From: an uncultured Opitutia bacterium
GTDB lineage: Bacteria; Verrucomicrobiota; Verrucomicrobiia; Opitutales; Opitutaceae
Reading direction: 5' to 3'
Assembly (NCBI GenBank): GCA_903855985.1
Contig: CAIOAO010000013.1
Span: 1-64,000, forward strand
Length of the DNA: 64,000 nt
Shown here piece by piece: positions 894 to 61,818 of the stretch. Every line of letters begins with the position of its first letter. Within the stretch, counting starts at the first letter, position 1. A program made the position numbers and the translations under genes. Under the pieces are notes generated by a model. The model saw only the letters and a program-made list of their open reading frames with translations, did not search any database and was not told the origin of the DNA.

Positions 894-4673
<3,780 letters not shown>

Positions 4674-4773
4674 GAGAGTTCCCGATGAGGGTTAGGAGAC
4701 GAAAAAAGGAAAGGCGCCGGACTCAGCGTGCGGCGCGGAGAACCAACGAAAGAACAATAACGGAAAAGGCAAA

Positions 4774-4803
4774 GGACAGGCCGGGGGTGAACCCGGCCTG
4801 TCC
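4774..4803 (-). terminator. rplL-rpoB intergenic stem-loop (attenuator)
   Basis: A perfect 12-bp stem (GGACAGGCCGGG) encloses a 6-nt loop. On the minus strand it is followed by TTTGCCTTTT. It sits between rplL and rpoB, where E. coli has a partial terminator that sets the ratio of ribosomal protein to polymerase transcripts. The interrupted U tract fits an attenuator rather than a full stop. The stem is seen; the attenuating role is inferred. Confidence 0.7.
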
Positions 4804-4845
4804 GACTGAAAACGGACGGGATGCGGATGAAATCGCCAAGCGGTC

Positions 4846-5229
4846 TTACTTGAGTTCGACCTTGGCGCCGGCGGCCTCGAGCTTCTTCTTGAGCTCCTCG
4901 GCCTCGGCTTTGGCGACGTTCTCCTTGACGTTCTTGGGGGCCGCCTCGACGAGGTCCTTGGCCTCCTTGAGGCCGAGGCCCGTGATCGCACGGACTTCCT
5001 TGATGACGCCGATCTTGTTCGCGCCGGCCTCCTTGAGGACGACGGTGAACTCGGTCTGCGCCTCGGCGGCGGGAGCCCCGGCGGCGGCGGCGCCCGCGGG
5101 AGCGGCGGCGACGGCAGCGGCGGCGGACACGCCCCACTTGCCCTCGAGATCCTTCACGAGGGTCGCGAGTTCGAGGACGGGCTGGCTCGAGAGCCATTCG
5201 ATGACTTGGTCTTTGGTGATGTTGCTCAT
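4846..5229 (-). CDS. rplL: 50S ribosomal protein L7/L12
   Basis: The 127-residue stalk protein recruits translational GTPases to the ribosome. The N-terminal dimerisation helix (about 1-35) is followed by an Ala/Gly/Pro-rich hinge (about 36-58) and the C-terminal domain with the signature [12 protein letters not shown]. Length is normal for the family. It lies 139 b downstream of rplJ, in the order expected for L10-L7/L12. Confidence 0.98.
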
Positions 5230-5368
5230 GGTGACTGCTCCTTGGAGTGGACTAGCGGTTTCGGGAAGTGAAACGCGTTTAAGAGACGTATCCCCTAGCC
5301 TGCTCCGGTGGATTTATTGCTTCCCCGGCTGACGCCGGAAAAATTGGGTTGGATGGATGAGGGGTGGA

Positions 5369-5893
5369 TTAGGCGGCCGGGGCGGCGGGAGCCGCCGGGG
5401 CCTCGGGAGCCGCGGGCGACTCCTTCTTGACCTTGGCGTCGAGCACGCGGACGAAGGCCGCGGCGTTCTGGGTGAACAGGCCGAGCAGTTGCGAGCGCAG
5501 CGCCTCGAACGAGGGCAGGTCCGCAATCTTGGCGAGGTCGGCGGCGGAGACGATTTTCTTCTCCATCACGCCCACCTTCACCTCGAGCTTCTGTTTGTCC
5601 TCGAAGAACTTCTTCAGGATCTTCGCGACGCCGGCGGAGTTCTTGCCACCCACGACGACGGCCGTCGGGCCGGTCAGGGCGCTCTCGAACTCGGGCAGGC
5701 CCAGGGCCTTGGCCGCGACGCGGAGGGAGCTGTTCTTGACGACGTGAAACTCGGCCTTCTCGGTGTCGAGGCGCTTGCGCAGCTCGGCCACATCGGCGAC
5801 CGTGACCTTCGTGAAGTTGGTCAGGATGACGTAGTCGGATTTCTTGAGGTGGGTCTCAACCTCGGCGATCAGGTAATTTTTTTCGGCTCTCAT
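5369..5893 (-). CDS. rplJ: 50S ribosomal protein L10
   Basis: The 174-residue L10 anchors L7/L12 dimers to 23S rRNA. The N-terminal RNA-binding domain (about 1-130) contains TEKAEFHVVKNSSLRVAAK and GPTAVVV. The tail after about 135 is the helix that binds the L7/L12 dimers, and it ends in an Ala/Pro-rich extension. Only 14 b separate it from the rplA stop codon, so the E. coli-type long L10 leader is absent here and any autoregulatory site must lie elsewhere. Confidence 0.97.
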   Translation of the reverse strand: MRAEKNYLIAEVETHLKKSDYVILTNFTKVTVADVAELRKRLDTEKAEFHVVKNSSLRVAAKALGLPEFESALTGPTAVVVGGKNSAGVAKILKKFFEDKQKLEVKVGVMEKKIVSAADLAKIADLPSFEALRSQLLGLFTQNAAAFVRVLDAKVKKESPAAPEAPAAPAAPAA

Positions 5894-5907
5894 GGTTGGG
5901 ACTCCGT

Positions 5908-6606
5908 TTAATATTTGCTGAACTCGGTGGCGGCGACATGGACGCCGGGGCTCATGCTGGATGAGAGGGCGACGGTCTTGATGTAGTTGCTGCCCTTGAA
6001 GGTGGAGGGCTTGGCCTTGCCGACGGCCTCGATGACGACGTTGGCGTTCTCGAGGATCTGGGCGGCGGTGAACGAGCGCTTGCCGATGCCGACGCCGATG
6101 TTGCAGGCCTTGTCCATCTTGAACTCCACGCGGCCGGCCTTGACGGCCTTGATGCCGGCAGGGATGTCATCGGTCACGGTGCCGGACTTCGGGTTGGGCA
6201 TCAGGCCCTTCGGGCCGAGGACGCGGGCGATCGTGCGGACGGTCTTCATCGCCTCGGTCGTCGCGATCGCGACGTCGAAGTCGAGCCAGCCCTCGTTGAT
6301 CTTGGCCATCATGTCCTGAAGACCGGCGTGGTCGGCCCCGGCGGCGATCGCCTTGGGCGCGTCGTCGGTGAAGACGAGCACGCGGACCTTCTTGCCGGAA
6401 CCGTTCGGGAGCGGCGTGGTGCCGCGCACCATCTGCTCGCCGGCGGTCGCGTCGACCCCGAGGCAGAAGGACAGCTCGACGGTCTCGTCGAACTTGGCCT
6501 TCGGGAATTTCGTGAGGAGCTCGACGGCTTCCGCCAGCGGGTAATCCTTGGTGAGATCAGCGACCTTGAGGGCGCTGGTGTATCGTTTGCTATGGGCTTT
6601 GGGCAT
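5908..6606 (-). CDS. rplA: 50S ribosomal protein L1
   Basis: L1 forms the mobile L1 stalk near the E site. From the ATG at 6606 (MPKAHSKRY) the protein has 232 residues, normal for L1. The track's longer version begins 49 codons upstream in sequence that overlaps the intergenic gap and the end of rplK, and that extension does not look like L1. Family hallmarks include LTKFPKAKFDETVEL, RVLGPKGLMPNPKSGTV and the C-terminal KGSNYIKTVALSSSMSPG. It follows rplK in the standard order. Confidence 0.97.
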   Translation of the reverse strand: MPKAHSKRYTSALKVADLTKDYPLAEAVELLTKFPKAKFDETVELSFCLGVDATAGEQMVRGTTPLPNGSGKKVRVLVFTDDAPKAIAAGADHAGLQDMMAKINEGWLDFDVAIATTEAMKTVRTIARVLGPKGLMPNPKSGTVTDDIPAGIKAVKAGRVEFKMDKACNIGVGIGKRSFTAAQILENANVVIEAVGKAKPSTFKGSNYIKTVALSSSMSPGVHVAATEFSKY

Positions 6607-6676
6607 TAGGGACTCCTTGCGGTGCGAACGTTCCGGGTGGAACTCCCGCGTTGAGTTGGGTTGTCGGGTGGAAAAA

Positions 6677-7102
6677 TCAGTCGATGACGTCGATGCCCAT
6701 GTTGCGGGCGGTACCGGCGATGATCTTGATGCCGGCGGCCTCGTCCTTGGCATTCATGTCGGCCTTCTTCAGCTTCCAGATCTCGGCCAGCTGCTTCTTC
6801 GTGACCTTGCCGACCTTGTCCTGGTTGGGCTTGGCGGAGCCGCTGGCGATGTTGGCGGCCTTCTTGAGGAGGACCGACGCCGGGGGCGACTTGAGGATGA
6901 ACGTGAAGCTCTTGTCCGAGAACACCGTGATGACCACCGGCAGGATCATGCCGTTCTGGTCCTTGGTGCGGGCGTTGAAGTCTTTGCAGAACGCCATGAT
7001 GTTGACGCCCTGCGCGCCGAGCGCGGGACCGACCGGGGGCGCGGGATTCGCGGCGCCGGCGGGCAACTGGAGGCGGATGTAACCTTGGATCTTCTTGGCC
7101 AT
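6677..7102 (-). CDS. rplK: 50S ribosomal protein L11
   Basis: The 141-residue L11 binds the GTPase-associated centre of 23S rRNA. The N-terminal proline-rich domain shows the signature [19 protein letters not shown], the hinge region through which thiostrepton and release factors act. The C-terminal RNA-binding domain carries [18 protein letters not shown] and ends [10 protein letters not shown]. It is preceded by nusG with a 44-b gap and followed by rplA. Confidence 0.98.
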
Positions 7103-7146
7103 AAGAGGTGGTGTTTAGTTAAAAAGTTGGGAGCGGGGGCGGCAGG

Positions 7147-7728
7147 TCACTCGGTGACGCGGGAAACCTGCCAGTATTCGAGCTCGACCGGGGTGAAGCG
7201 GCCGAAAATGGAGACGGAAACCTTGAGCTTGCCGCGGTCGGGATCGATTTCATCGATCCGGCCGGTGAGGCTGGCGAACGCGCCGTCGTTGATCTTCACT
7301 TCCTCGCCGATGCTGTACTGGACCTTCGGCACTTCCTTGCCGTTGGCCGCCTCGATGCGGGAGCGAATCTCGTCGATCTCGGACTGGCGCAGGGCCGCGG
7401 GGGCCTCGCCGCCGACAAAGCCGATCACGCCGGAGACTTCCTTCACGAAGTACCACGGCTTGTTGATGAGCTTCTTGTCCTCGCCGAAGAGCACCATCTG
7501 GATGAAGACGTAACCCGGGTAGAGCTTGCGGACCTTCGTGCTCTTCTTGCCGTTCTTGACCTCGGAAACGACCTCGGTCGGGAGCAGCACCTCGAAGATG
7601 GCGTCGTCGAGCTCCTCGGCCTTTTTGAACTTCTCGATGTAGTTCTTCACCTTGTTCTCCTGGCCGGAGAGCGTGTGCAGGGCAAACCACTGGGCGGTGG
7701 CGGGAGCGGTGGGGCTGGAAGTGGACAT
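7147..7728 (-). CDS. nusG: Transcription termination/antitermination factor NusG
   Basis: NusG bridges RNA polymerase with Rho or the leading ribosome. I choose the ATG at 7728 (MSTSSPTAPATAQWFALHT), which gives 193 residues. The track's ATG lies 40 codons earlier and its extension lies inside secE. The NGN domain covers about 10-130, with KLYPGYVFIQM and WYFVKEVSGVIGFVGG. The C-terminal KOW domain holds IGEEVKINDGAFASLTG. The start is 7 b downstream of the secE stop codon, the conserved secE-nusG coupling. Confidence 0.97.
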   Translation of the reverse strand: MSTSSPTAPATAQWFALHTLSGQENKVKNYIEKFKKAEELDDAIFEVLLPTEVVSEVKNGKKSTKVRKLYPGYVFIQMVLFGEDKKLINKPWYFVKEVSGVIGFVGGEAPAALRQSEIDEIRSRIEAANGKEVPKVQYSIGEEVKINDGAFASLTGRIDEIDPDRGKLKVSVSIFGRFTPVELEYWQVSRVTE

Positions 7729-7735
7729 GGCGCGG

Positions 7736-7939
7736 TTAGCTGACCAACCTCGTGAACAGGTCGACGAAGTTATAGAGGGCAAAATCGCTGATGGAGGTGA
7801 ACACACCCAGGATGACCGCGGCGAGGATGACCACGACGGTCGAGTCACGCAGCTCGGTCCAAGTCGGCCAGGTGGCCTTCTTGAGTTCGTCGATCATCTC
7901 GACGACAAAGATGCGGGTGCTGCTGAACGGGTTTTTCAT
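7736..7939 (-). CDS. secE: Preprotein translocase subunit SecE
   Basis: This is a 67-residue single-span SecE, the short form found outside gamma-proteobacteria. The amphipathic helix contains MIDELKKATWPTWTELRDST and is followed by one membrane segment (about 34-56). The correct start is MKNPFSS at 7939; the 82-residue track version starts inside the tRNA-Trp gene. SecE clamps SecY in the protein-conducting channel. The rpmG gene often found next to secE is not present here. Confidence 0.95.
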   Translation of the reverse strand: MKNPFSSTRIFVVEMIDELKKATWPTWTELRDSTVVVILAAVILGVFTSISDFALYNFVDLFTRLVS

Positions 7940-7950
7940 GGGCTGGAATT

Positions 7951-8026
7951 TGGCAGGCGCGGAGGGAATCGAACCCCCAACCAACGGTTTTGGAGACCGC
8001 TACTCTACCAATTGAGCTACACGCCT
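7951..8026 (-). tRNA. tRNA-Trp (anticodon CCA)
   Basis: This is a 76-nt cloverleaf with CCA encoded. The acceptor arm AGGCGTG pairs with CGCGCCT, the discriminator is G, and the anticodon loop reads CTCCAAA with anticodon CCA. The T arm shows GGTTCGATTCC. It lies between tuf and secE on the same strand, a widely conserved position, and is probably processed from the tuf-secE transcript. Confidence 0.97.
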
Positions 8027-8051
8027 GTAATGGGCTTTCTTAGACGACGCA

Positions 8052-8077
8052 GCCGAGGCCCCCGAAAGGGCCTCGGC
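8052..8077 (-). terminator. Stem-loop downstream of tuf
   Basis: A 10-bp perfect stem (GCCGAGGCCC / GGGCCTCGGC) with a 6-nt loop lies just after the tuf stop codon and before tRNA-Trp. No U tract follows on the minus strand, so it may be a weak terminator or an mRNA 3'-end and RNA-processing element rather than a strong Rho-independent stop. Confidence 0.5.
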
Positions 8078-8105
8078 GTCGCCGAGTTAAACGGTTGATG
8101 GAGAC

Positions 8106-9296
<1,191 letters not shown>

Positions 9297-9543: not shown

Positions 9544-10260
9544 CTACGGGCCGATGCAGATGCGATAGAAACCGGGAGCCAGTCGCTGACCGGCATGAAG
9601 CGTTTTTACGAGGTAATTTTGGAAATATCCGTCCACAGCCGCCACCCGTGAGCTTTCGGTCAGCGTGGGCGGACCCACCAGGCCCATCGCATCGACCGCC
9701 ACGAGGAACTCCAATGGCTGCCAGGCCCCGCCCGGGGGATTGGCATTGGCCAAGGGTTGGGCCAGAAGTCGCTGGCCATTGACCGCCGCCAGTATCTCTA
9801 TAAAAGCTTTTCTTACAATTAGTTGAGTAGCCGGTTGATCCGACTGACCCAGCCCCAGGAATGACTGCCCGGACCGATCCGCCGCCAGGGCATCCGCCGG
9901 GCGCGCCGGTACCTTGATGGCCGCGGGAAAGTTCAAATTGAGCTCCGTTTCCGCAAACGCCAGTTTGGCGGGATAACCCTGAAAAGAGCCGCCCGGCTCG
10001 CGCTGGGTGTTCGCCGGCAGGGCATTTTGGCCGGAATTCCATTCGGTCGGCAAAAACAGCGGGGTCGGATCGGTCAGGGCCGCCTCATTGGGCTTCAGAC
10101 TCACCAGTCTGACGGCGCTTCCGGGTGTTTTTACCGGCTGCAGGGGCCGCACCCGGGTGCCACCCGGCGCCCGGAAGAGCAGGAAAAACGCGACCAGCAC
10201 GACCACGGCGCCGGCCACCGCATACACCCACCGGTATTGCCGGCCCGTCGCGGTCTTCAT
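9544..10260 (-). CDS. TonB-like periplasmic protein of the exbBD operon
   Basis: I do not recognise a named family with certainty. The 238-residue product has a short basic N-terminus, one membrane helix (about 12-30, VYAVAGAVVVLVAFFLLF) and a periplasmic remainder. The last 90 residues (IEILAAVNGQ to LAPGFYRICIGP) resemble the small C-terminal domain of TonB-type transducers only loosely, and there is no proline-rich Glu-Pro/Lys-Pro linker. It starts 5 b after the exbD stop codon, so it is translated with ExbB and ExbD and is the natural candidate for the transducer or effector of that motor. Confidence 0.5.
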   Translation of the reverse strand: MKTATGRQYRWVYAVAGAVVVLVAFFLLFRAPGGTRVRPLQPVKTPGSAVRLVSLKPNEAALTDPTPLFLPTEWNSGQNALPANTQREPGGSFQGYPAKLAFAETELNLNFPAAIKVPARPADALAADRSGQSFLGLGQSDQPATQLIVRKAFIEILAAVNGQRLLAQPLANANPPGGAWQPLEFLVAVDAMGLVGPPTLTESSRVAAVDGYFQNYLVKTLHAGQRLAPGFYRICIGP

Positions 10261-10265
10261 CGTCG

Positions 10266-10715
10266 TCAGCGACCCGGTGCCGGGTAGGCCGCCGGCTCTT
10301 CCGCCGCGAGGGTGATGTTGGAACCAAAGCCCGCCTCCCGGGCGGCGCTGACAATTTCATTCTGCACCGACACGGGGACGCCGGCGCTCATGCGTACCAG
10401 CAGCGAGGGGTGCTTGTTTTTCTTCGCCTCGGTTTTCAGCCATTCGCGCAGCTGCGGCAGGCTGAGCAGGCCGTCGGCAAAGATCTGCCCGGAGTTCTTG
10501 ACGCTGATAGTGCTCGTTGTGGTCACGGCGTTGCTCACCGCGCCCGGCAGTTTTGGCAGCTCAAAATCCACCCCCAGACCCGGTGCGAGCACGAAGCGGG
10601 AGCCGAACACAAAGAAGAAAAGCACCAGCATGCCCACGTTCACATAGAACAGGGCGTCGAGGTTCCGCGGCTGCGCCCGCAGCTTGGCGGCGAGATCCAG
10701 CGGGCGCGTGATCAT
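10266..10715 (-). CDS. ExbD/TolR-family biopolymer transport protein (Asp-to-Asn in the TM)
   Basis: The 149-residue product has the ExbD layout: a short cytoplasmic N-terminus, one membrane helix (about 24-40), then FVLAPGLGVDFELP and a periplasmic domain. In ExbD and TolR the membrane helix begins with an essential Asp (IDV in E. coli ExbD, Asp25). Here the aligned residue is Asn26 (VNVGMLVLFFFV), codon AAC at 10638-10640. Its ATG overlaps the exbB stop by 4 b (ATGA), indicating coupled translation. It may be a true ExbD that lost the proton-binding residue or a divergent stator. Confidence 0.8.
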   Translation of the reverse strand: MITRPLDLAAKLRAQPRNLDALFYVNVGMLVLFFFVFGSRFVLAPGLGVDFELPKLPGAVSNAVTTTSTISVKNSGQIFADGLLSLPQLREWLKTEAKKNKHPSLLVRMSAGVPVSVQNEIVSAAREAGFGSNITLAAEEPAAYPAPGR

Positions 10716-11383
10716 TTTTTATCCCCCGCCCCACCCTCGCCGGCAGGCCCGGTGCCCGGCGCCACGCCCCGGTAGTCCGTCTGCAGGTATTTCATGATCT
10801 CATTCCCCGCCCACTCCACGTCGCGCACGATGGCGCGGACGCGGCCGCTCAGGAAATGGTGCGCCAGATGCGCCGGGATCGCGAGCATCAGGCCCCCCGC
10901 CGTGCACAGCAGCGCCTGCCACATGCCCTTGGCGAGCACGCTGGCCGTGGCGTAGTCCCGCTCGAAGGCGAGAAACGTGGTGACAAAGCCCAGGACCGTG
11001 CCCAGCAGGCCGACGAGCGGCGCAACCTGGGCGATCGCCGCGATGCTGCCGAGCCGCCGCTCCAGCACGGGCAGCTCGACGATCGCGGCCTCCTGCACAT
11101 GGAAGCGCATCGCGTCGGCGCCGTCGTCCGCGTGCAGCAGCGCCGCCTTCACCACTGCCGCCACCGGGCCGGGGGTTTCCTCGCACACCGTCAGCGCCTC
11201 GACGATGCGGCGCTTGGCGAGGATGTTCTTGATGCCGCCGATGAAGGCCGTGGAGCGGATCTGCCCGCGGTGCAGGTAAAGGGTGCGCTCGATCACGAGC
11301 ATGAGGCAGAGCAGGCCGAGCGCGAGCAGCACCCACATCATCGGGCCGCCCTTGGCGAAAAGGCTGAAGTCAAAAACGGACAT
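10712..11383 (-). CDS. MotA/TolQ/ExbB-family protein (Glu-to-Gln in the pore)
   Basis: The 223-residue protein has three membrane helices (about 14-31, 118-140, 155-178) typical of ExbB and TolQ. The polar residues Thr129 (LGTVLG) and Thr161 (LLCTAGG) match E. coli Thr148 and Thr181. The residue aligned with the conserved pore Glu176 (AEALLATA) is Gln156 (MWQALLCTA), codon CAG at 10916-10918 on the coding strand. It is the second gene of an operon with the TPR protein upstream and ExbD-like plus TonB-like genes downstream. Confidence 0.85.
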   Translation of the reverse strand: MSVFDFSLFAKGGPMMWVLLALGLLCLMLVIERTLYLHRGQIRSTAFIGGIKNILAKRRIVEALTVCEETPGPVAAVVKAALLHADDGADAMRFHVQEAAIVELPVLERRLGSIAAIAQVAPLVGLLGTVLGFVTTFLAFERDYATASVLAKGMWQALLCTAGGLMLAIPAHLAHHFLSGRVRAIVRDVEWAGNEIMKYLQTDYRGVAPGTGPAGEGGAGDKK

Positions 11384-11447: not shown

Positions 11448-14039
11448 TCAGGGTTTCGTCTCCGGGAGATTGAAGCGGGCCAGCCGCGCCTTCGCCAGGT
11501 CCTCGCCCGGGCTCAGCCGGGCCTTCAGGATCAGCAGCCAGGCCTCCTTGGCCTGCTCGAGTTTTTCCTGCGATTCGAACAGCGTGCCGAGTTCAAGGAG
11601 CGTGCGCGCCATCCAGTAGCGGCCCTTCGCCCCCAGCTGCGCCGCGAGCGCGGGATCCTTGACCAGGAACTCGTGCACCACGTCCTTCCACCACACCTCC
11701 TCGGCCCGGGCGGCGTCGCCCCGGCGCGCAAACAGATAGCCGAGATTGAACCCGGCCTCGACCCGCACATCCACCGGCGCGTCCACGCGGTCGCGCAGGT
11801 GCTCGAACAGGACGATGGCGCGCTCCGCCTGGCTCGGGTCGCTGGCGGATTGCGCGTTGTGACACTCCGCCAGCGCGAGCTGTGCGAGGATCACGTCCTT
11901 GTGCGCCACGTAGTTGTTCACGAGCGTTTCGTAAACCTGCTGGGCCTGCGGAAACTGGTTCAGTTTCCGCAGCAAGTCGCCCTGCTTGAGCCGGGCGTAG
12001 AACACCAGGTCGCTCTGCTGATACCTCTTCACCAGGTCCTCGATCAGCCGGTTGGCCTCGGCAAAATTGGCGTCCTGGCCGCGCCGTTCCGCCTGCAGCG
12101 CCGCCTGGTAGAGCGCATAGGGCGCGTAGGTGTTGTCCGGGAATTCGTCGGCGAGCTTTGTGAACAGCTGCTGGGCCTCCACGGTCTTGTCCTGCTTCTC
12201 GTAGTGCTCGGCTTCGACAAAGTAGGAATACACCGCGGCGTCCGACCGCGGGAAATCCGCGCGCAGTTTTTTCAGCAGCTCCAGCGCATCCGCCTCGCGC
12301 CCGAGGGCAAAGCTCGCCTCGCCCTTCAGCAGCGCCCCCGTGCTTTCCATCTCGCTCTTCAGCGCCGGCGCCACGCCTTCCAGCTTCGCCGGCAGCGCGT
12401 CCACCAGCTTGAGCGTCTGCTCCGGCTGGCCCGCCTCGAGTGACAGCCGGGCCTGCAGCCAGGCCATCCGGGCCTGCAGCTCCGGCGGCAACGAACCCGG
12501 CGACTGCCGCGGAAACGCGAGCAGCCGGTTCACCCGGTCGTACGCGTCCTTCGTCTGGTCATGCGTCTGGAGCGCGCGCGCCAGGTTCCACTCCGCCTGC
12601 CAGCGATTCACCGCGTCGAAGGCCGGATTCTTAGCCAGGTCGTCGAGCACCGTCTGCGCCGTGTCCAGCGAGCCGGCCTCCATTTCGGCGAGTACGCGTT
12701 GAAACATCAGGTTGCCCGGCGGCACACCCGCCGGTGGCTCGGCCAGCGTCGCCGCGTAGGCGTCGGCCGCGCTGCGAAAATCCCGCGCCCGGAACCACGC
12801 CTCGGCCACAAGCACTCCGAGCTGCGCATGTTCCGGCCCAGCAGCAAGTTCCGCACGCGCCTTGGCTGCGTTGTCGGCCGCCGTGCGGTAGCGCAGCTGC
12901 GCCCACGCCGAGCCGGTCAGCACGCCGAGGGCGTGGGCCTTGAGCGGCGAGCCGGGAAACTTCTGCAGCAGCGCGTGCGCATCGTCCTCGGCTTGGGCGT
13001 AATTCCGATCCGCCAGCGCCAGTTCGGCCCGGAACAGCAGCAGATCCTCCAGGATCGGATGCGCCGCCGGCAGGCCGATGAGCCCATCGAGTTTCTTGCG
13101 GAACTCCGCCCGCGCCGGATCGCGGTCGGACGCCCGGGCGAGCAGCTGGAGGGCGATGCGCTGCTTGTCGCGGTCGGCGCCCTCGCGCAGCAGTTCGTTG
13201 AGCGCGGTGCGGCCCGCACCTTCATCGGCGCCGGCGATCAGGCCCAGCACGAGCCGCGTGCTGTCCAGCTCGTCCCGTTCCTCCGCCGGCATGATGGCGA
13301 GCTGCCGTTGCAGCAGTGCGATGGCCTCGCTCTTCCGGCCGAGGGCGTCGAGCATGGCTGCGTACGTCCGCGCAATGCCGTAGCCGATTTTGCGGCCTTG
13401 AAATTGTTCGAGGTTCTTCCGCTGTGTCTCCGCCTCGGCGTCCGTCACCGGTCCGAGCCGCAGCCGCGCCTGCTCCCGCGCGAGGATGAAACGCGCCCGG
13501 GAAAAATTGGTCCCGGCCGCGCCCTCCGCCTGCTGGTAGAAATCCTTGGCCCCGTTCACGTCGTTCGCCGCGTCCGCCAGCAGCCCCTGCAGGTAGAAAT
13601 ACCAGGCCCGGTCGGTCGCCGCCACCTCGTCCGCCTTGATCGCCGCGAGTTCGCCCCGCGCCGCATCCACCTTGCGCTGCTGCAGCGCCGCGAGTGCCGC
13701 GCGCAGATGCCAGGCCGCGCCGCGCCAGCCAATGTACGCCTGCAGCGCCTGCTCCGCCTCGGCCGCCCGGCCGTCGTCCAGCAGCGCCGTGGCCAGCCGG
13801 AGGGTCAGTCGCGCGCGATCGCCATCCGGCGCCGCCAGCAGCCCGCGGTACAACTCCGCCGCCACGGCGGGAAAACCCATCTCGGCCGCCCGGTCGGCAG
13901 CCGCCAGGGTCAGGGCCTTGTCTCCCGGCGAAGCCGCGCGGGTTGCCGCCACGAGCGGGACCGGGGCGAAGAGCGGCGCCTGCGCGCGCAGGACCGTGGC
14001 CGTGGCCAGCAGGAGGACGGGGAGGATTCGGAATCGCAT
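11448..14039 (-). CDS. Exported tetratricopeptide-repeat protein
   Basis: From the ATG at 14039 (MRFRILPVLLLATATVLRAQ) the product has 863 residues with a clear signal peptide cut near ALA-like RAQ-AP. The rest is almost entirely alpha-helical TPR or Sel1-like repeats, for example YFVEAEHYEKQDKTVEAQQL followed by KLADEFPDNTYAPYALYQAA. It is likely a periplasmic scaffold and resembles the CpoB/YbgF or BamD type of partner that accompanies Tol-Pal or Ton motors. It opens the operon with exbB (64-b gap), exbD and the TonB-like gene. The longer track start adds 30 residues upstream of the signal peptide and is unlikely. Confidence 0.75.
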   Translation of the reverse strand: MRFRILPVLLLATATVLRAQAPLFAPVPLVAATRAASPGDKALTLAAADRAAEMGFPAVAAELYRGLLAAPDGDRARLTLRLATALLDDGRAAEAEQALQAYIGWRGAAWHLRAALAALQQRKVDAARGELAAIKADEVAATDRAWYFYLQGLLADAANDVNGAKDFYQQAEGAAGTNFSRARFILAREQARLRLGPVTDAEAETQRKNLEQFQGRKIGYGIARTYAAMLDALGRKSEAIALLQRQLAIMPAEERDELDSTRLVLGLIAGADEGAGRTALNELLREGADRDKQRIALQLLARASDRDPARAEFRKKLDGLIGLPAAHPILEDLLLFRAELALADRNYAQAEDDAHALLQKFPGSPLKAHALGVLTGSAWAQLRYRTAADNAAKARAELAAGPEHAQLGVLVAEAWFRARDFRSAADAYAATLAEPPAGVPPGNLMFQRVLAEMEAGSLDTAQTVLDDLAKNPAFDAVNRWQAEWNLARALQTHDQTKDAYDRVNRLLAFPRQSPGSLPPELQARMAWLQARLSLEAGQPEQTLKLVDALPAKLEGVAPALKSEMESTGALLKGEASFALGREADALELLKKLRADFPRSDAAVYSYFVEAEHYEKQDKTVEAQQLFTKLADEFPDNTYAPYALYQAALQAERRGQDANFAEANRLIEDLVKRYQQSDLVFYARLKQGDLLRKLNQFPQAQQVYETLVNNYVAHKDVILAQLALAECHNAQSASDPSQAERAIVLFEHLRDRVDAPVDVRVEAGFNLGYLFARRGDAARAEEVWWKDVVHEFLVKDPALAAQLGAKGRYWMARTLLELGTLFESQEKLEQAKEAWLLILKARLSPGEDLAKARLARFNLPETKP

Positions 14040-14166
14040 GCGAACGCGGCTAAGTTGCTGCGCCCCATGGAAACAATCAACCGCGTTGTAATCAGTTCCT
14101 TCTGGCGCGCCCGGGTTCCCTCGGCACACTCACCGGCGTCAGTTTTCCCCTTCAATTCATCCCATC

Positions 14167-14769
14167 ATGAGCATCGCACTTATCGTCCTCGTCGGCCTTC
14201 TCGCCGTCCTCGTTGTCCTCGGCCTCTGGGTCACGGGCATCTACAACTCCCTTGTCGCCCTCCGCAACCGCTTCAAGAACGCGTTCGCGCAGATCGACGT
14301 CCAGCTCAAGCGCCGCTACGACCTCATTCCCAACTTGGTCGAGACCGCCAAGGGCTACATGAAGCACGAGAGCTCCACCCTCGAGGCCGTCATCAAGGCC
14401 CGCAACCTCGCCCTCGCCGCCGCCCAGTCCGCCGCCGCCAACCCGGCTGACGCCAACGCCATGAAGAGCCTCGGTGCCGCCGAGTCCGGCCTGGGTGGCG
14501 CCCTCTCCCGCCTGATGGTCGTCTCCGAGCAATACCCCGACCTCAAGGCCAACCAGAACATGATGCAGCTCACCGAGGAGCTCACCTCCACGGAAAACAA
14601 GGTCTCCTTTGCCCGCCAGGCGTACAACGACAGCGTCATGGGCTACAACACGACGCGCGAGACGTTCCCCAACGTGATCTTCGCCGGCATGTTCGGCTTC
14701 CTGCCCGCCGAGTTGTTCAAGATCGACGACCCGACCGAGCGCAACGCGCCCAAAGTCAGCTTCACCTGA
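14167..14769 (+). CDS. lemA: LemA family membrane protein
   Basis: The 200-residue protein has an N-terminal membrane helix (about 3-24) followed by the LemA signature [15 protein letters not shown], then [20 protein letters not shown]. The remainder is the helical-bundle domain of the family. LemA proteins have no agreed biochemical role but are often encoded with M48 metalloproteases, as here, where an UPF0145 gene and an M48 protease follow on the same strand. Confidence 0.93.
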
Positions 14770-14789
14770 AGCCCCGGGCCGCTCCCGCC

Positions 14790-15110
14790 GTGCATAATAC
14801 CACCGGCTTTTCGCTCACCGGGTTCCGCGTCTCCTCGGAACTCGGGACCGTCCGCGGCATCGTCGTCCGCTCCCGCTCCGTGGTCGGCAACATCGGCGCG
14901 AGCATCCAGACGCTGTTCGGCGGCGACATCACACTCTACACCGAGCTCTGCGAGCATGCCCGCCAGGACGCCTTTGAGCGGATGTGTCGCGAGGCCACCG
15001 CCCGCGGCGCCAACGCCATTCTTGGCCTGCGCTACGACGCCACCGAGATCTCCCCTGGCGTGACCGAGGTGCTGTGCTACGGCACCGCTGTCGTCGTCAC
15101 CCCCGGCTGA
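14790..15110 (+). CDS. UPF0145 (YbjQ-like) protein
   Basis: The 106-residue product matches the YbjQ/UPF0145 family: STLG-like opening [13 protein letters not shown], the central region [27 protein letters not shown], and the end GTAVVV. The fold is a small pentameric beta-alpha ring; function is unknown. It lies 20 b after lemA and 65 b before the M48 protease, forming a three-gene unit. Confidence 0.88.
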
Positions 15111-15174
15111 TCCCCGCCGGCCGCGGCGGTGCACCGATTCCTCGTATCCCGCCTCCTCGACCGCCCAACCCGAC

Positions 15175-17148
15175 ATGGATTTCTTCGAAGCCCAGGCCCG
15201 CGCCAAGCAACGCACCGGGCGGCTCGTCGCACTTTTCATGGTCGCCGTGATCGGCACCATCCTGGGCGGTTATTTTGCGACGATCTTCCTGCTGGCCTAC
15301 AGCCCGACCCGCACCAGCCGCCACCGGTACTATCAGTCGTCCAACATCGAGACGACGCCGGTTCAGCTCTGGCAGCCACAGGTGTTCCTGACGGTCACGG
15401 TTGGCACGCTCCTCGTCGTCGGCATCGCCTCGCTCGTCAAATGGCAGGAGTTCTCCGCCGGCGGTTCCGCCGTCGCCGAGAGCGTCGGCGGCCGGCCGAT
15501 CAACCCGCACACCACCGACCTGCGCGAGCGCAGGCTCCTCAACGTCGTCGAGGAAATGGCCATCGCCTCCGGCATCCCCATGCCCGCGGTGTACGTGCTC
15601 GATCAGGAACCCGCCATCAACGCCTTCGCCGCCGGCCTCACCACCAGCGATGCCGTCGTCACCGTCACGCGCGGCACACTCGACAAGCTCACCCGCGACG
15701 AGCTCCAGGGCGTCATCGGCCATGAGTTCAGCCACATCCTCAATGGCGACATGCGGCTCAACCTCCAACTCAGCGCCCTGCTCTTCGGCATCCTCGTCAT
15801 CGGCCTCGCCGGCCGCGGCATCCTCTGGGCCATGACCCGCGGCCGCATCCGCGGCGACGGCAAGAACTCCGGCGGCGCCGTCATCGCCATCGCCGCCGTC
15901 GGCCTCGCCCTGCTCATCCTCGGCTACGTCGGGTATTTTTTCGGCAAGCTCATCCAGGCCGCCGTCTCGCGCCAGCGCGAGTACCTCGCCGACGCCTCTT
16001 CCGTCCAGTTCACGCGCAACCCCGGCGGCATCACCGGCGCGCTGAAAAAGATCGGCGGCTTCGCCCTCGGCTCCTCACTCGAGTCGAACAAGAGCTCGAC
16101 CATCGGCCATTTCTTTTTTGCCCAGGCCTTCGAGTCGAGTTTCGGCGGACTCTGGGCCACGCACCCGACCCTCGACTCGCGCATCCGCGCCATCGACCCG
16201 CAGTTCGACGGGAAGATGTTCGACCCGCCGGAGGTTGTGGACGTCAGCCAGGAATCCTTCGCCAAGGCGGGTTTCGCCCCCGGCGCCCTCGACCATTCCA
16301 CCCTCAAGCGTCCCGCCGCCCCGCGGCCCTCGCCCGTCGCCATCATCGCCACCATCGGCACGCTCGCCCCCGCCAACATCGCCCACGCCGAGACATTGCT
16401 CGCCTCGGTGCCGCCCCGCCTCCGCGATGCCGCCCGCTCGCCCACCGAGTCAGCCATCCTGCTGTACGGGCTGCTGCTCGACGGCAATGAGACGATGCGC
16501 GAACGCCAGCGCTCCCTCGTCGCCACCAAGGCCGGCGCCGAGTCACGGCGCCTGCTCGGCGAACTCGAGCCCGCCCTCGGCTCGCTCGGGCCCGAGCACA
16601 AGCTCCCCCTCCTCCAGCTGGCGGTGCCCGCTCTTCGCAACCTGCCGCCGGCCTCACTCGTCCCTTTCCTCGACACCCTCGACGAACTGGTCCACGCGGA
16701 CGGCAAGGTTTCCACCTTCGAGTTCGCGCTGCAAAAACTCCTCACGCGCTCCCTCGCCCTCGGGGAAAAACCCGGCGCCGCCGTCGTCCAGGTCTATTCG
16801 TTCAACGCCGTCGCCAACGAGATCAGCGTCGTGCTCTCCGCCCTCGCCTACACGGCGAGCAATGGCGGATTGGACGCCGCCGGGGCCTTTGCCGCCGGGG
16901 CCGACCAGTTGAAACTGCTCGAGGGCAAGCTGGCCCTGCTCCCGCCCGCCGCCAGCGACTTCGTCCGGCTCGACGCCGCCCTCGACAAGCTCGCCAACGC
17001 CAGCGGCCCGATCAAGCAGCGCCTCCTGTTCGCCAGCGCCCACGTGGTCGGCGCCGACGGCACGATTCTGATCGCCGAGGCGGAATTGCTCCGCGCCATC
17101 GCCGCCGCCCTCGACTGCCCGATGCCGCCGCTGCTCGCGGCCGCGTAA
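15175..17148 (+). CDS. M48-family zinc metalloprotease with C-terminal extension
   Basis: The 657-residue protein is an HtpX/Ste24-type membrane protease. Two membrane helices lie near 20-40 and 65-85; the zinc motif HEFSH is at about 183-187, and the third ligand lies in REYLADA. Additional helices follow at about 195-215 and 240-260. After about residue 350 a long extension, Ala/Pro-rich and then helical and reminiscent of TerB-like regions, is not part of the protease. With LemA and UPF0145 it probably handles membrane protein quality control. Confidence 0.88.
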   Translation: MDFFEAQARAKQRTGRLVALFMVAVIGTILGGYFATIFLLAYSPTRTSRHRYYQSSNIETTPVQLWQPQVFLTVTVGTLLVVGIASLVKWQEFSAGGSAVAESVGGRPINPHTTDLRERRLLNVVEEMAIASGIPMPAVYVLDQEPAINAFAAGLTTSDAVVTVTRGTLDKLTRDELQGVIGHEFSHILNGDMRLNLQLSALLFGILVIGLAGRGILWAMTRGRIRGDGKNSGGAVIAIAAVGLALLILGYVGYFFGKLIQAAVSRQREYLADASSVQFTRNPGGITGALKKIGGFALGSSLESNKSSTIGHFFFAQAFESSFGGLWATHPTLDSRIRAIDPQFDGKMFDPPEVVDVSQESFAKAGFAPGALDHSTLKRPAAPRPSPVAIIATIGTLAPANIAHAETLLASVPPRLRDAARSPTESAILLYGLLLDGNETMRERQRSLVATKAGAESRRLLGELEPALGSLGPEHKLPLLQLAVPALRNLPPASLVPFLDTLDELVHADGKVSTFEFALQKLLTRSLALGEKPGAAVVQVYSFNAVANEISVVLSALAYTASNGGLDAAGAFAAGADQLKLLEGKLALLPPAASDFVRLDAALDKLANASGPIKQRLLFASAHVVGADGTILIAEAELLRAIAAALDCPMPPLLAAA

Positions 17149-57926: not shown

Positions 57927-58077
57927 ACCTGCCGCCGCGCTTCTGAGCGTGCCGCGTTTCCGCCTGCTTCGGCGGGACGCCACCGACCCGCGTTTCACGG
58001 CGGCCTTCGCCCACCCGGCCCTTCCGGCCGTGCCTCCGCGCGCCCGCGCGCCCACCCGCCAGCAACCGTCTTCTTCC

Positions 58078-60369
58078 ATGAATTTCCGTCTCCCTCTTTC
58101 CCTCACTTTCTCCCTTCTCCTCACCAGCGCGGTTTCCGCGCAGGTGCCCGGCTCCGGGGATCCCGCGCAGCCGGTTTCCCTCGACCGCATCGATGTCACC
58201 GCCGGCCGCGGTGGTCCGGCCACACGGGACAATTCCCTCCTGCCGGTCACCGCCAGCATCACCGCCCCGCGCCTCGAGGAAACCGTCAACCTCATCGACA
58301 CCGAGGACGCCGTGAAATACCTGCCCAGTCTCTTTCTGCGAAAGCGCAATTACGGCGACACCCAGGCAGTGATGGCCACGCGCACCTGGGGCGTCAGCTC
58401 CAGCGCTCGCAGCCTGGTCTTTGCCGACGGCGTGCTGCTCACCGCGCTGGTGGCCAACAACAATACGATCGGCGCCCCGCGCTGGGGCCTTATCGCCCCC
58501 GCCGAGATCGACCACATCGACGTGAGGTACGGACCGTTCTCCGCCGCCTACGCCGGCAACTCCATGGGCGCCGTCATGGAAATCTTCACCCGCCAGCCGG
58601 AAAAGTTCGAGTCCTCCCTCGTCCAGGCCGAGGCCTGGCAGAACTTCGCCCTGTACGGCACCAAGGGCGATTTTTACACCCACCAGACCGCCGCACTTGT
58701 CGGTAACCGCGCGGGCAAGTTCTCGTTCTGGATCAGCGGTAATTTCCAGGACAGCCACAGCCAGCCGCTCACCTTCGTCACCGCCGCGACCTTCCCGGCG
58801 GGCACCACCGGCGGCTACGCGGATCGCAACAAGCTCGGCGCGCCCGCCAATGTCCTCGGCGCCAGCGGCCTGCTCCACACCAAGATGAGCAACGCCCGGT
58901 TCAAGGCCGCCTACGACCTCACCCCGTGGCTGCGCGTCGCCTACACCTTCGGCCTCTGGCGCAACGACGCCAAGTCCACGACCCAGACCTATCTCACCAA
59001 CGCCGCCGGCCTGCCCACCTACGCCGGCCAGACCGGCTTCGCCAGCGGCACCTACGGCTTGTTCGAGCAGCACTCGGCCCACAGCCTCACGTTCCGGACC
59101 GACACCAAGGGTCACTGGGACTTCGAGCTCGACGCCAGCGCCTACCACTACGACCACGACAAACAGCGCACGCCCACCACCGCGTCCGCCACCAACGCGG
59201 GCGGACTCGCCCTCGGCTCCGCCGGCCGCGTCGCCGTGCTCGATGGCACCGGCTGGTCCACGCTCGATTTCAAGGGCACCTGGCGCCCCGACGGCACTTC
59301 CGGCACGCACACGGTGACGTTCGGCGCGCACCACGACCAGTACCGGCTCTTCAACCCGACCTACAACACCCCTGACTGGACCTCCGGCAGCACATACTCG
59401 TCCGTGGCCACCGAGGGCGACGGCAAGACCCGCACGCAGGCACTCTGGGCGCAGGATGCCTGGCAGATCGCCCCCGCGTGGAAGCTCACCACCGGCCTGC
59501 GCTACGAGGACTGGCGCGCTTTCGACGGCTACAACGTCAATGGCGTCACCAGCGTCCGCCAGCCCACCGTCACCGCGTCCAATCTTTCGCCCAAGGTCCG
59601 GCTCGTCTGGACCGCCTCGCCCGTATGGACCGTCACCGCCTCCATCGGCCAGGCCTACCGTTATGCCACCGCCGCCGAGCTTTATCAGCTCGTGTCCACC
59701 GGCACCACGTTCACCTCGCCGAACCCCAACCTGAAGCCCGACGACAACCTCTCCGTCGAGCTCGTCCTCGAGCGTTCCTTCGCCCAGGGCCGGGCGCGCG
59801 TGTCCCTGTTCCAGGACGACGTTCACGACGCGATCATCTCGCAGTTCCTGCCGCTCGTTGCCGGCTCGTCCACGCTCTACTCCTACCTCGCCAACGTGGA
59901 CCACGTACGTGCACGCGGCGTGGAGTTCTATGTCGAGCGGCGCGATGTGCTCGTCCGCGGTCTGGAGTTCTCGGGTAGCGTGACCTACCTCAACGCCCGC
60001 ACCCTCGCGATCTCCGGCGCCGCCAGTGCCACCGCGCCCGCCGGTTCCGCCATCGGCAAGTTCCTGCCCAACATCCCAGAGTGGCGCATGGGATTCCTCG
60101 TGACCTACCGCCCGGATGAGCGCTGGGCGTTTTCCGCCGGTGGCCGCTACAGCGACAAGCTCTGGACGACCCTCGACAACTCCGACGTGAACCCGAACAC
60201 GTACCAGGGTTTTGCCGCGTGGTTTGTCGCCGACGTCCACGTGAACTTCCGGATCGACCAGCACTGGTCCACGTCCGTGGGTCTGGATAATGTCCTCAAC
60301 CGGAAATATTTCCTGTTCCACCCGTTCCCCCAGCGGACCGCCGTGGCGAACCTGAAGTACGCCTTCTGA
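58078..60369 (+). CDS. TonB-dependent outer-membrane receptor
   Basis: From ATG 58078 the 763-residue protein has a signal peptide ending VSAQ. The plug domain (about 40-180) includes DAVKYLPSLFLRKRN, then ARSLVFADGVLL and EIDHIDVRYGPFSAAYAG, and the beta-barrel follows to a terminal Phe (AVANLKYAF), the outer-membrane signature. No histidine-rich loop stands out. Substrate unknown; the PepSY and metal-ATPase neighbours suggest metal or metal-chelate uptake. There is no obvious Fur or Zur box upstream. Confidence 0.9.
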   Translation: MNFRLPLSLTFSLLLTSAVSAQVPGSGDPAQPVSLDRIDVTAGRGGPATRDNSLLPVTASITAPRLEETVNLIDTEDAVKYLPSLFLRKRNYGDTQAVMATRTWGVSSSARSLVFADGVLLTALVANNNTIGAPRWGLIAPAEIDHIDVRYGPFSAAYAGNSMGAVMEIFTRQPEKFESSLVQAEAWQNFALYGTKGDFYTHQTAALVGNRAGKFSFWISGNFQDSHSQPLTFVTAATFPAGTTGGYADRNKLGAPANVLGASGLLHTKMSNARFKAAYDLTPWLRVAYTFGLWRNDAKSTTQTYLTNAAGLPTYAGQTGFASGTYGLFEQHSAHSLTFRTDTKGHWDFELDASAYHYDHDKQRTPTTASATNAGGLALGSAGRVAVLDGTGWSTLDFKGTWRPDGTSGTHTVTFGAHHDQYRLFNPTYNTPDWTSGSTYSSVATEGDGKTRTQALWAQDAWQIAPAWKLTTGLRYEDWRAFDGYNVNGVTSVRQPTVTASNLSPKVRLVWTASPVWTVTASIGQAYRYATAAELYQLVSTGTTFTSPNPNLKPDDNLSVELVLERSFAQGRARVSLFQDDVHDAIISQFLPLVAGSSTLYSYLANVDHVRARGVEFYVERRDVLVRGLEFSGSVTYLNARTLAISGAASATAPAGSAIGKFLPNIPEWRMGFLVTYRPDERWAFSAGGRYSDKLWTTLDNSDVNPNTYQGFAAWFVADVHVNFRIDQHWSTSVGLDNVLNRKYFLFHPFPQRTAVANLKYAF

Positions 60370-60381
60370 GCCGCCCTTCCC

Positions 60382-61818
60382 ATGAACCAGCTCTCCCCGG
60401 GCTCATCCCCGCCGTCTGAATCGCAGTCCGCGCTCTACCGCGCGGTCTGGCGCTGGCACTTTTATGCCGGCCTCTTTGTCGCGCCACTGGCCATCCTGCT
60501 CTCCGTCACCGGCGCGATCTACCTCTGGAAACCGCAGTATGAGGCGTGGCGCTACCGGGCTTTGCTCACGGCTCCGGTCGGCACCGTCACCCAATCCGCC
60601 GCGGCCCAGTTCGCCGCCGCCACCGCCACGCATCCCGACGCCACCGCGATCACGTTCACGCCGGCGTTCACGCCCGGTAGCACGAGCGAGACTGTCTTGC
60701 GGCTGCGCGACGGCGAAAAAACTTCGGTCTATGTCGATCCCGCCACGGCGCGCGTCACCGGCGAACTGGCCGACTCCGACCGGTTCATGCGGATCGTCCA
60801 CGACCTGCACGGTACACTCCTCGCCGGCTCCGCCGGCGAGTACGTCGTGGAGCTCGCCGCCAGCTGGGCCATCATCCTCTTCCTGACCGGCCTGTACCTC
60901 TGGTGGCCCCGCCCGCATTTCACCGCCTGGGGCTTCCTGCTGCCCCGGTTGCGCGCGAAGGGCCGCGTTTTCTGGCGTGACCTGCACGCCGTGCCCGCCG
61001 TCTGGCTCGCCGCCGCCACGCTGTTCCTTCTGACCACCGGACTGCTGTGGACCAAGGCCGCCGGCACCTGGTATCGCACGATTTCCGCAGCCGTCGGCCA
61101 GGGCACGCCACGCGAGTCCAACGCCGGAGCCCACCGCTCCGAGCTGACCGGCTGGTCCCCGCCCCTCCAGGCCGGCCTGGCCCAAAAAATCGACGCCCTC
61201 GTCTCCGCTCCGCCCGCCGACGACCCCCACGCCGAGCACCGCCGGGCGTCAGCCGAATCGAAATTCGAAAATCGAAATTCGAAAATCCCGTCCCTCTCCC
61301 TCGATCGGGTGATTGCCATCGCCGCCGAACACCACGTGACGCAACCCTACGCCATCGCCCTCCCGGTCGGCCCCACCGGCGTGTACAGCGCCCTCACCGA
61401 CCGCAACCTCGCCTTCTCGCGCGTCTATCTGCACCTCGACCGCTACTCCGGCCGCGTACTCGCCGAGGTCCGCTACGGTGATTTCGGCTGGCTCGCGAAA
61501 TTTTCCCTCTGGGCGATCATTGCGCACGAGGGCCAGCTCTTCGGCCTGCTCAACCAGCTCCTCGGCACCCTCGCCGCGCTCGGCGTCCTGCTCCTCGCCG
61601 TTACCGGCCTCACCATGTGGTGGCAGCGCCGCCCCGCCAGCCAGCTCGCCGCCCCCGCCAGCGACGCGACCCTGCCGCGGGCAGTCTTCGTCGGCACCCT
61701 CCTCCTCGCCGCCTTCCTGCCCCTGCTGGCCGCCTCGCTGGTCCTTGCCTGGCTGGCGGATCATTTTCTCCGGCAGCGTTGGCCAGCCTTGTCGCGCGAC
61801 AACCCCACGACCGACTGA
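60382..61818 (+). CDS. PepSY-associated TM helix protein (PiuB-like)
   Basis: The 478-residue protein has four membrane helices and the PepSY_TM layout: LYRAVWRWHFYAGLFVAPL near the N-terminus, RFMRIVHDLHGTLLAG and the C-terminal LLNQLLGTLAALGVLLLAVTG. Such proteins accompany siderophore receptors and iron acquisition. It starts 12 b after the receptor stop. An unusual AT-rich insertion (61257-61284) encodes KFENRNSKI in the soluble loop. Confidence 0.87.
   Translation: MNQLSPGSSPPSESQSALYRAVWRWHFYAGLFVAPLAILLSVTGAIYLWKPQYEAWRYRALLTAPVGTVTQSAAAQFAAATATHPDATAITFTPAFTPGSTSETVLRLRDGEKTSVYVDPATARVTGELADSDRFMRIVHDLHGTLLAGSAGEYVVELAASWAIILFLTGLYLWWPRPHFTAWGFLLPRLRAKGRVFWRDLHAVPAVWLAAATLFLLTTGLLWTKAAGTWYRTISAAVGQGTPRESNAGAHRSELTGWSPPLQAGLAQKIDALVSAPPADDPHAEHRRASAESKFENRNSKIPSLSLDRVIAIAAEHHVTQPYAIALPVGPTGVYSALTDRNLAFSRVYLHLDRYSGRVLAEVRYGDFGWLAKFSLWAIIAHEGQLFGLLNQLLGTLAALGVLLLAVTGLTMWWQRRPASQLAAPASDATLPRAVFVGTLLLAAFLPLLAASLVLAWLADHFLRQRWPALSRDNPTTD
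61257..61284. repeat. Two perfect 14-bp tandem units inside the PepSY gene
   Basis: ATCGAAATTCGAAA occurs twice in tandem (61257-61270 and 61271-61284). It is very AT-rich compared with the gene and contains the palindromic TTCGAA-type core. It encodes SKFENRNSKIPS in frame. This looks like an intergenic-type repeat captured in a coding region. Confidence 0.9.

Follow-up and report, generated by a model that had tools for sequence, protein, structure and literature searches.

The 64,000-nucleotide stretch of uncultured Opitutia DNA analysed here (the window) carries on its minus strand an operon encoding, in order, a TPR protein, an ExbB/TolQ-like protein, an ExbD/TolR-like protein and a membrane-anchored protein of 238 residues, followed by tuf. 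The TPR gene spans 11448..14039 (-) with Met31 as the likely start, a choice that is our reading of the sequence, within an ORF that opens at 14129; its product matches the TPR_6 profile (9.6e-7) and the YbgF-like profile TIGR02795 (1.4e-12, which is below the cut-off of TIGR02795), and is probably periplasmic given its N-terminal signal-peptide-like stretch, MRFRILPVLLLATATVLRAQA. The ExbB-like protein (223 residues; 10712..11383, -) and the ExbD-like protein (149 residues; 10266..10715, -) are both encoded by intact ORFs, which overlap by ATGA, and the gene for the 238-residue protein follows at 9544..10260 (-). The same four genes are found in the same order at 80 related loci of public genomes, with a TPR orthologue at every one of them and the fourth gene detected in 78, and ExbB and ExbD are each encoded once per operon. 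The EF-Tu gene, tuf (8106..9296, -), is the next gene downstream and is a conserved neighbour that lies outside the complex; it is found downstream and on the same strand in 69 of the 70 related loci with room for it, the basal loci have it too, and its constancy fixes the orthology of the loci. The region downstream of the operon (894-9296, -) contains rpoB, rplL, rplJ, rplA, rplK, nusG, secE and tuf, all on the strand of the operon, such that co-expression with this translation cluster is possible; no match to a sigma-70-type promoter was found between 9250 and 14300. Divergent neighbours at 14167-17148 (+) resemble LemA, a YbjQ-type protein and an M48 peptidase, as read from their ORFs. Elsewhere in the window there is a TonB-dependent receptor barrel (58933-60294, +; PF00593, 4.8e-46) inside an ORF at 57949-60369, followed by what reads as a PepSY-like membrane protein (60382-61818), and a link between this receptor and the ExbBD operon is not evident.

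The ExbB-like protein belongs to its Pfam family with 86.6 bits against PF01618 (1.5e-24; cut-off 22.9 bits), and has the TM2/TM3 pore segment with GLxGT and the equivalent of Escherichia coli Thr148. Its top score is with TolQ (TIGR02796, 5e-20, below the cut-off of that model), and its best PDB relatives are TolQ and ExbB chains (TolQ at 6.6e-13, and weaker). The glutamate found at E. coli position 176 is absent, and a profile alignment with solved TolQ/ExbB chains sets GmwQALLs against GiaEALLa, with Gln156 (codon 10916..10918, -) in its place. The original prediction proposed that this glutamate and the membrane aspartate of ExbD had co-evolved to their amides as a pair, a proposal that does not survive comparison with relatives. 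Residue 156 varies beside a fixed ExbD Asn, being Q in 68 of 81 sequences, E in four, H in four, R in three, and A and M in one each; all 15 rows from the family's basal genera (L235-L249) carry ExbD Asp, 14 of them with ExbB Gln; and across the class an Asp-bearing ExbD is accompanied by Q, N, V, K or E in ExbB, and an Asn-bearing one by Q, M, H, R, A or E. The Glu/non-Glu state of ExbB changes eight times on the Opitutales tree. In two other systems of this genome, C43 and C6, the ExbB residue aligned with Glu176 is Ala in one and Leu in the other while the ExbDs retain Asp, so Glu176 is not defining for the ExbB family at large. A 2013 paper by Baker and Postle, cited in PMC12215075, to go by its title, reportedly found that ExbB transmembrane mutations exclude a proton-pathway role. 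Because position 156 is not paired with the ExbD state, because of the Ala and Leu in Asp-bearing systems, and in view of that title, the ExbB half of the finding carries little weight and the ExbD half is the meaningful one.

The identity of the ExbD-like protein is similarly clear, as it scores 37.5 bits against PF02472 (2.9e-9; cut-off 25.4 bits), has a single TM helix and the ExbD periplasmic fold, and has ExbD as its best PDB relatives (4.7e-9). Foldseek pairs its model with the periplasmic domain that E. coli ExbD shows when bound to TonB (8p9r and 8vgd; prob 1.00, TMt 0.80-0.81), and gives a prob of 1.00 for 8pek as well. Asn26 (codon 10638..10640, -) lies at the position of E. coli Asp25, and for both this residue and Gln156 the placement given in the original prediction is borne out by profile and in-family alignments. 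The register of Asn26 is ungapped against an Asp-bearing ExbD of this genome, with FF at +7/+8 and F at +15 in line, alignments with at least 80 orthologues give the same placement, and the same stretch reads MIDVCLIFIFFSLLSSKFVLA in basal orthologues and YVNVGMLVLFFFVFGSRFVLA in the window. A PDB ExbD profile alignment instead places N26 on an INVT segment, a register that we rejected on the strength of the downstream aromatics and of orthologues that bear the Asp. Residue 26 is Asn in 79 of the 81 sequences and Ser in the other two, with neither Asp nor Glu in any; the proton-carrier Asp is thus absent from the window ExbD, and the change is no isolated mutation of one genome, an outcome that had been named as a possible refutation. 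The expectation that Gln and Asn are both conserved is therefore borne out for Asn26 (79/81) and not for Gln156 (68/81). Three residues before the site, Phe23 (codon 10647..10649, -) occupies the alignment column of the Pro of PxxD in Asp-bearing relatives; this -3 position is Pro in 35/37 Asp rows of the subfamily and Phe in 48/55 rows of the Asn clade. Restoration of Asp through deamidation of the Asn is not favoured, the following residue being Gly in only 19/55 rows. The near-invariance of the Asn could reflect a specific ion or conformational role, and not neutrality.

In the E. coli structure Asp25 adjoins Thr148 and Thr181 of ExbB (PMC6778125). The neighbouring Thr residues had been described as retained, and both are indeed present in the window, as Thr129 (codon 10997..10999, -) and Thr161 (codon 10901..10903, -) respectively; across orthologues this holds for Thr129, which is T in 55/55 Asn-clade rows and 15/15 Asp-bearing rows of the family, but not for Thr161, which is Thr or Ser in all 46 rows with ExbD Asp and is relaxed without it, with a non-hydroxyl residue in 22/89 such rows. 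The Asn clade has also gained or fixed ExbB residues elsewhere, namely Gln119 (55/55), Thr136 (52/55) and His172 (51/55), and the pattern of these three argues for re-specialisation over decay. In Asp-bearing relatives the same positions are less fixed or different. New constraints have thus arisen, as would suit a working motor in which ions follow a different path via other polar or ionisable residues. We nonetheless consider such a motor improbable, as the alignment contains no alternative conserved acid in the clade's ExbB TM2/TM3 or its ExbD helices: ExbB E32/R33 are fixed, but sit where TM1 ends and are common to Asp rows, His172 and His176 are near the cytoplasmic end of TM3, and ExbD Asp20 precedes the helix, is not fixed and is likewise common to Asp rows.

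The gene at 9544..10260, which did not figure in the original prediction, provides a further part of the picture. In the AlphaFold2 model its product has a single TM helix, then a linker of poor order and a compact alpha/beta domain at the C-terminus, which is modelled with confidence. A Pfam search with the protein gave no direct match, TonB_C included, and PDB profile and Foldseek searches were negative or weak, the best TonB (9dc4_T) having a prob of 0.20, which is not significant. A stepwise comparison of profiles is more informative: the family aligns with the third genes of other Opitutales families (hhalign E 2.7e-26) and of other orders (1.7e-7), and class-level third genes align with TonB_C domains of related genomes (prob 95, E 1.9e-8), while a reversed control gave nothing. 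Judged by this chain of order- and class-level homologues, the fourth gene is probably a diverged TonB homologue. Strands are predicted with low confidence at residues 51-56 and 59-63, right after the TM helix, where TonB has its D-box.

TonB of E. coli contacts Ser34 and Trp38 of ExbB through His20 and Ser16 (PMC12215075). A central TM-helix His is present in the basal genera and in most other families (for example VIAIVIAVVVHGVAL in L235 and FLVLSLGAHAL in L149), but the window helix contains no His at all, and the SHLS-type mid-helix His is missing from 79 close relatives, nine of which have a His at the helix edge. The TonB His is sometimes Gln in families f19, f23 and f52. On the ExbB side, alignment of the TM1 segments places Gly23 (codon 11315..11317, -) at the Ser34 position, which is Ser in 15/15 Asp-bearing members of the family and 10/10 other Opitutales, and Gly in 40, Ala in 13 and Ser in two of the 55 rows of the Asn clade. 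Across 92 rows the two residues occur together in 49 and are both missing in 35, with Ser alone in seven and His alone in one, the latter due to an alignment gap (Fisher 3e-17, phylogeny not corrected). Both residues were lost together on at least three separate occasions, in the window clade, f11 and f23. When linked loss is tested with correction for the tree, the direction is consistent, although the independent contrasts are too few for significance. On these alignments, the replacement of Asp by Asn is accompanied by loss of the TonB-type His, the ExbB TM1 Ser and the ExbD Pro at -3.

Besides the window operon, the genome has three ExbB loci and four ExbDs, every one of these ExbDs with Asp, and the second acidic ExbBD that had been suggested as a check is thus found in triplicate: C34 has ExbB-ExbD-ExbD with TonB, C43 is Tol-like with a TolA-like partner, and C6 is the third. 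Proton-driven Ton and Tol work can therefore be covered elsewhere. The abundance of Asp-bearing ExbDs also raises the prospect that the operon is still energised, either because its neutral ExbD joins an acidic partner from C34, C6 or C43, or because another ExbBD or TolQR powers the TonB-like protein, and cross-complementation of ExbBD and TolQR is known (PMC11658791). We regard a mixed motor of this kind as unlikely, albeit worth keeping in mind, given that the His-Ser docking contact is lost from both the TonB-like helix and the window ExbB, so that docking on another pentamer is not favoured, and given that each operon has one ExbB and one ExbD of its own and the acidic ExbDs are far diverged from the window subfamily. 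Alternatively, the neutral complex might act as a regulator or decoy that binds TonB boxes or shares partners of the acidic Ton systems, dampening or timing Ton activity. A probable TonB origin of the C-terminal domain, the 13 TonB-dependent receptor barrel matches in the genome, and the finding that Asn mimics the protonated state in MotB D22N (PMC9389320) would all suit such a role, yet the receptor-binding part has diverged past direct Pfam recognition and the operon adjoins tuf with no link to receptor genes; we think this role rather doubtful.

The timing of these events can be followed on a tree of ExbB plus ExbD with the trait columns removed, which was obtained by quick searches with single support values and has some deep nodes open. 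On the Opitutales tree the switch from Asp to Asn maps to one branch only, that leading to a clade of 55 rows (SH-aLRT 97), 54 of which kept Asn. The operon descends from an acidic, presumably proton-driven form that persists in the basal genera of the family. Comparison of the window with six relatives by simple counting gives dN/dS of 0.07-0.21 for ExbB, 0.13-0.32 for ExbD, 0.14-0.19 for the TonB-like gene and 0.14-0.29 for the TPR gene; all four are under purifying selection, and the operon is kept as functional. It is scarcely credible, then, that the locus is the decaying remnant of an acidic motor or an artefact of assembly: although losses do recur across the class, as decay might produce, an ExbD-profile match is present in 120/120 sampled genomes of the family, dN/dS is 0.07-0.32 throughout, and the same state appears in dozens of independent assemblies. 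A pseudogene or a one-genome mutation is ruled out for the Asn clade by the 81 sequences, the 120/120 genomes and dN/dS. On the class-wide tree of Verrucomicrobiota, likewise a quick search, the ExbD acid state has switched at least 10-11 times, to Asn, Thr, Cys, Ala, Gly or Met; seven or eight of the switches are independent contrasts on well supported branches. In many other Verrucomicrobiota families (L108-L179) this site of ExbD is occupied by Asn, Thr, Cys, Ala, Gly, Met or Leu.

In the Ton machine a proton gradient normally drives outer-membrane uptake. The window operon resembles the E. coli TonB-ExbB-ExbD system in the folds and Pfam families of ExbB and ExbD, the ExbB Thr148 equivalent, the TonB-bound-like ExbD periplasmic domain, and a third protein, probably of TonB origin, that has a TM helix followed by a linker; it differs in having Asn for ExbD Asp25 and Gln for ExbB Glu176, in lacking the equivalents of TonB His20 and ExbB Ser34, in its TPR gene, and in a TonB domain that is barely recognisable. 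Likeness to TolQ-TolR-TolA with CpoB/YbgF lies in an ExbB that is closest to TolQ and a TPR protein of the periplasm that weakly resembles YbgF, whereas no TolB or Pal is seen beside the operon, the acidic TolR residue and the SHLS-type His are lacking, and the Tol-like set of this genome is C43. A cluster described in the PVC superphylum, to which this organism also belongs, has a TPR gene followed by a tolQ-like gene, two tolR-like genes and a vWA transducer, and that paper stresses PMF-driven force, not acid loss (PMC12204202). The gene order there is similar, with a TPR gene, then motor-like genes and a membrane-tethered periplasmic protein, but the window operon has one ExbD and a third protein of the TonB type, not vWA; we looked in the window operon for a second, acidic ExbD and for a vWA match and found neither. 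In GldL-GldM, a 5:2-type assembly, the proton residue is not an inner-dimer Asp but Glu49 of GldL (PMC8986121). GldL-GldM is thus comparable in dispensing with Asp as the proton residue on the inner dimer and in the stoichiometry predicted for the window complex, and differs in that the GldL membrane Glu is strictly conserved while the window subunits have no conserved pore-helix acid.

E. coli ExbD D25N and TonB H20A are reportedly inactive (PMC11658791); the His mutant is H20A only, and other replacements might work. As lesions like D25N and loss of the His come together in the window complex, we infer that its 5:2 core would no longer move protons. The likeness of the ExbD fold to the TonB-bound form and the strands predicted in the linker indicate that the periplasmic grip may persist. 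The explanation that we favour, with modest confidence, is that a Ton-type complex of 5:2 stoichiometry was converted, on a single occasion, to a scaffold or tether uncoupled from protons. The operon would supply a TPR protein in the periplasm, a pentamer of ExbB that encloses a dimer of ExbD, and a strut resembling TonB; on one ancestral branch ExbD Asp gave way to Asn, and the TonB-type His and its ExbB Ser partner were lost. ExbB5-ExbD2 would then be a static membrane anchor with a neutral core, whose ExbD periplasmic dimer may still hold the TonB-like linker by strand recruitment, and the TonB-like and TPR proteins would form a fixed periplasmic tether or platform. The simplest role is thus probably to anchor the TonB-like strut and the TPR protein at a fixed point of the inner membrane, and the retention of the operon after these losses suggests a function needing no proton power. 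As for the neutral state from which the analysis started, the neutral ExbD is real, old and conserved, a joint change at ExbB position 156 is not supported, and a non-motor assembly is the best fit among the options originally offered.

A search of the open-access full-text literature (subscription papers lay outside its scope) found no report of a conserved ExbD family without the Asp. The Asp of ExbD, TolR and MotB is taken as indispensable in these ion-driven motors, and here is a lineage in which it was lost on one branch. With the class as a whole in mind, we put forward, tentatively but as a serious proposition, that the Ton-like 5:2 complex of the Verrucomicrobiota has repeatedly shed its proton-binding Asp with the operon kept, and that de-energised complexes are a recurrent, selected, non-motor outcome. 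Acidic sister orthologues at the same chromosomal place, together with the linked loss of the transducer contact, provide natural before-and-after pairs, which bear on what such complexes do besides moving protons and on which residues serve coupling and which serve assembly. They also carry a warning that not every ExbBD should be annotated as a proton motor.
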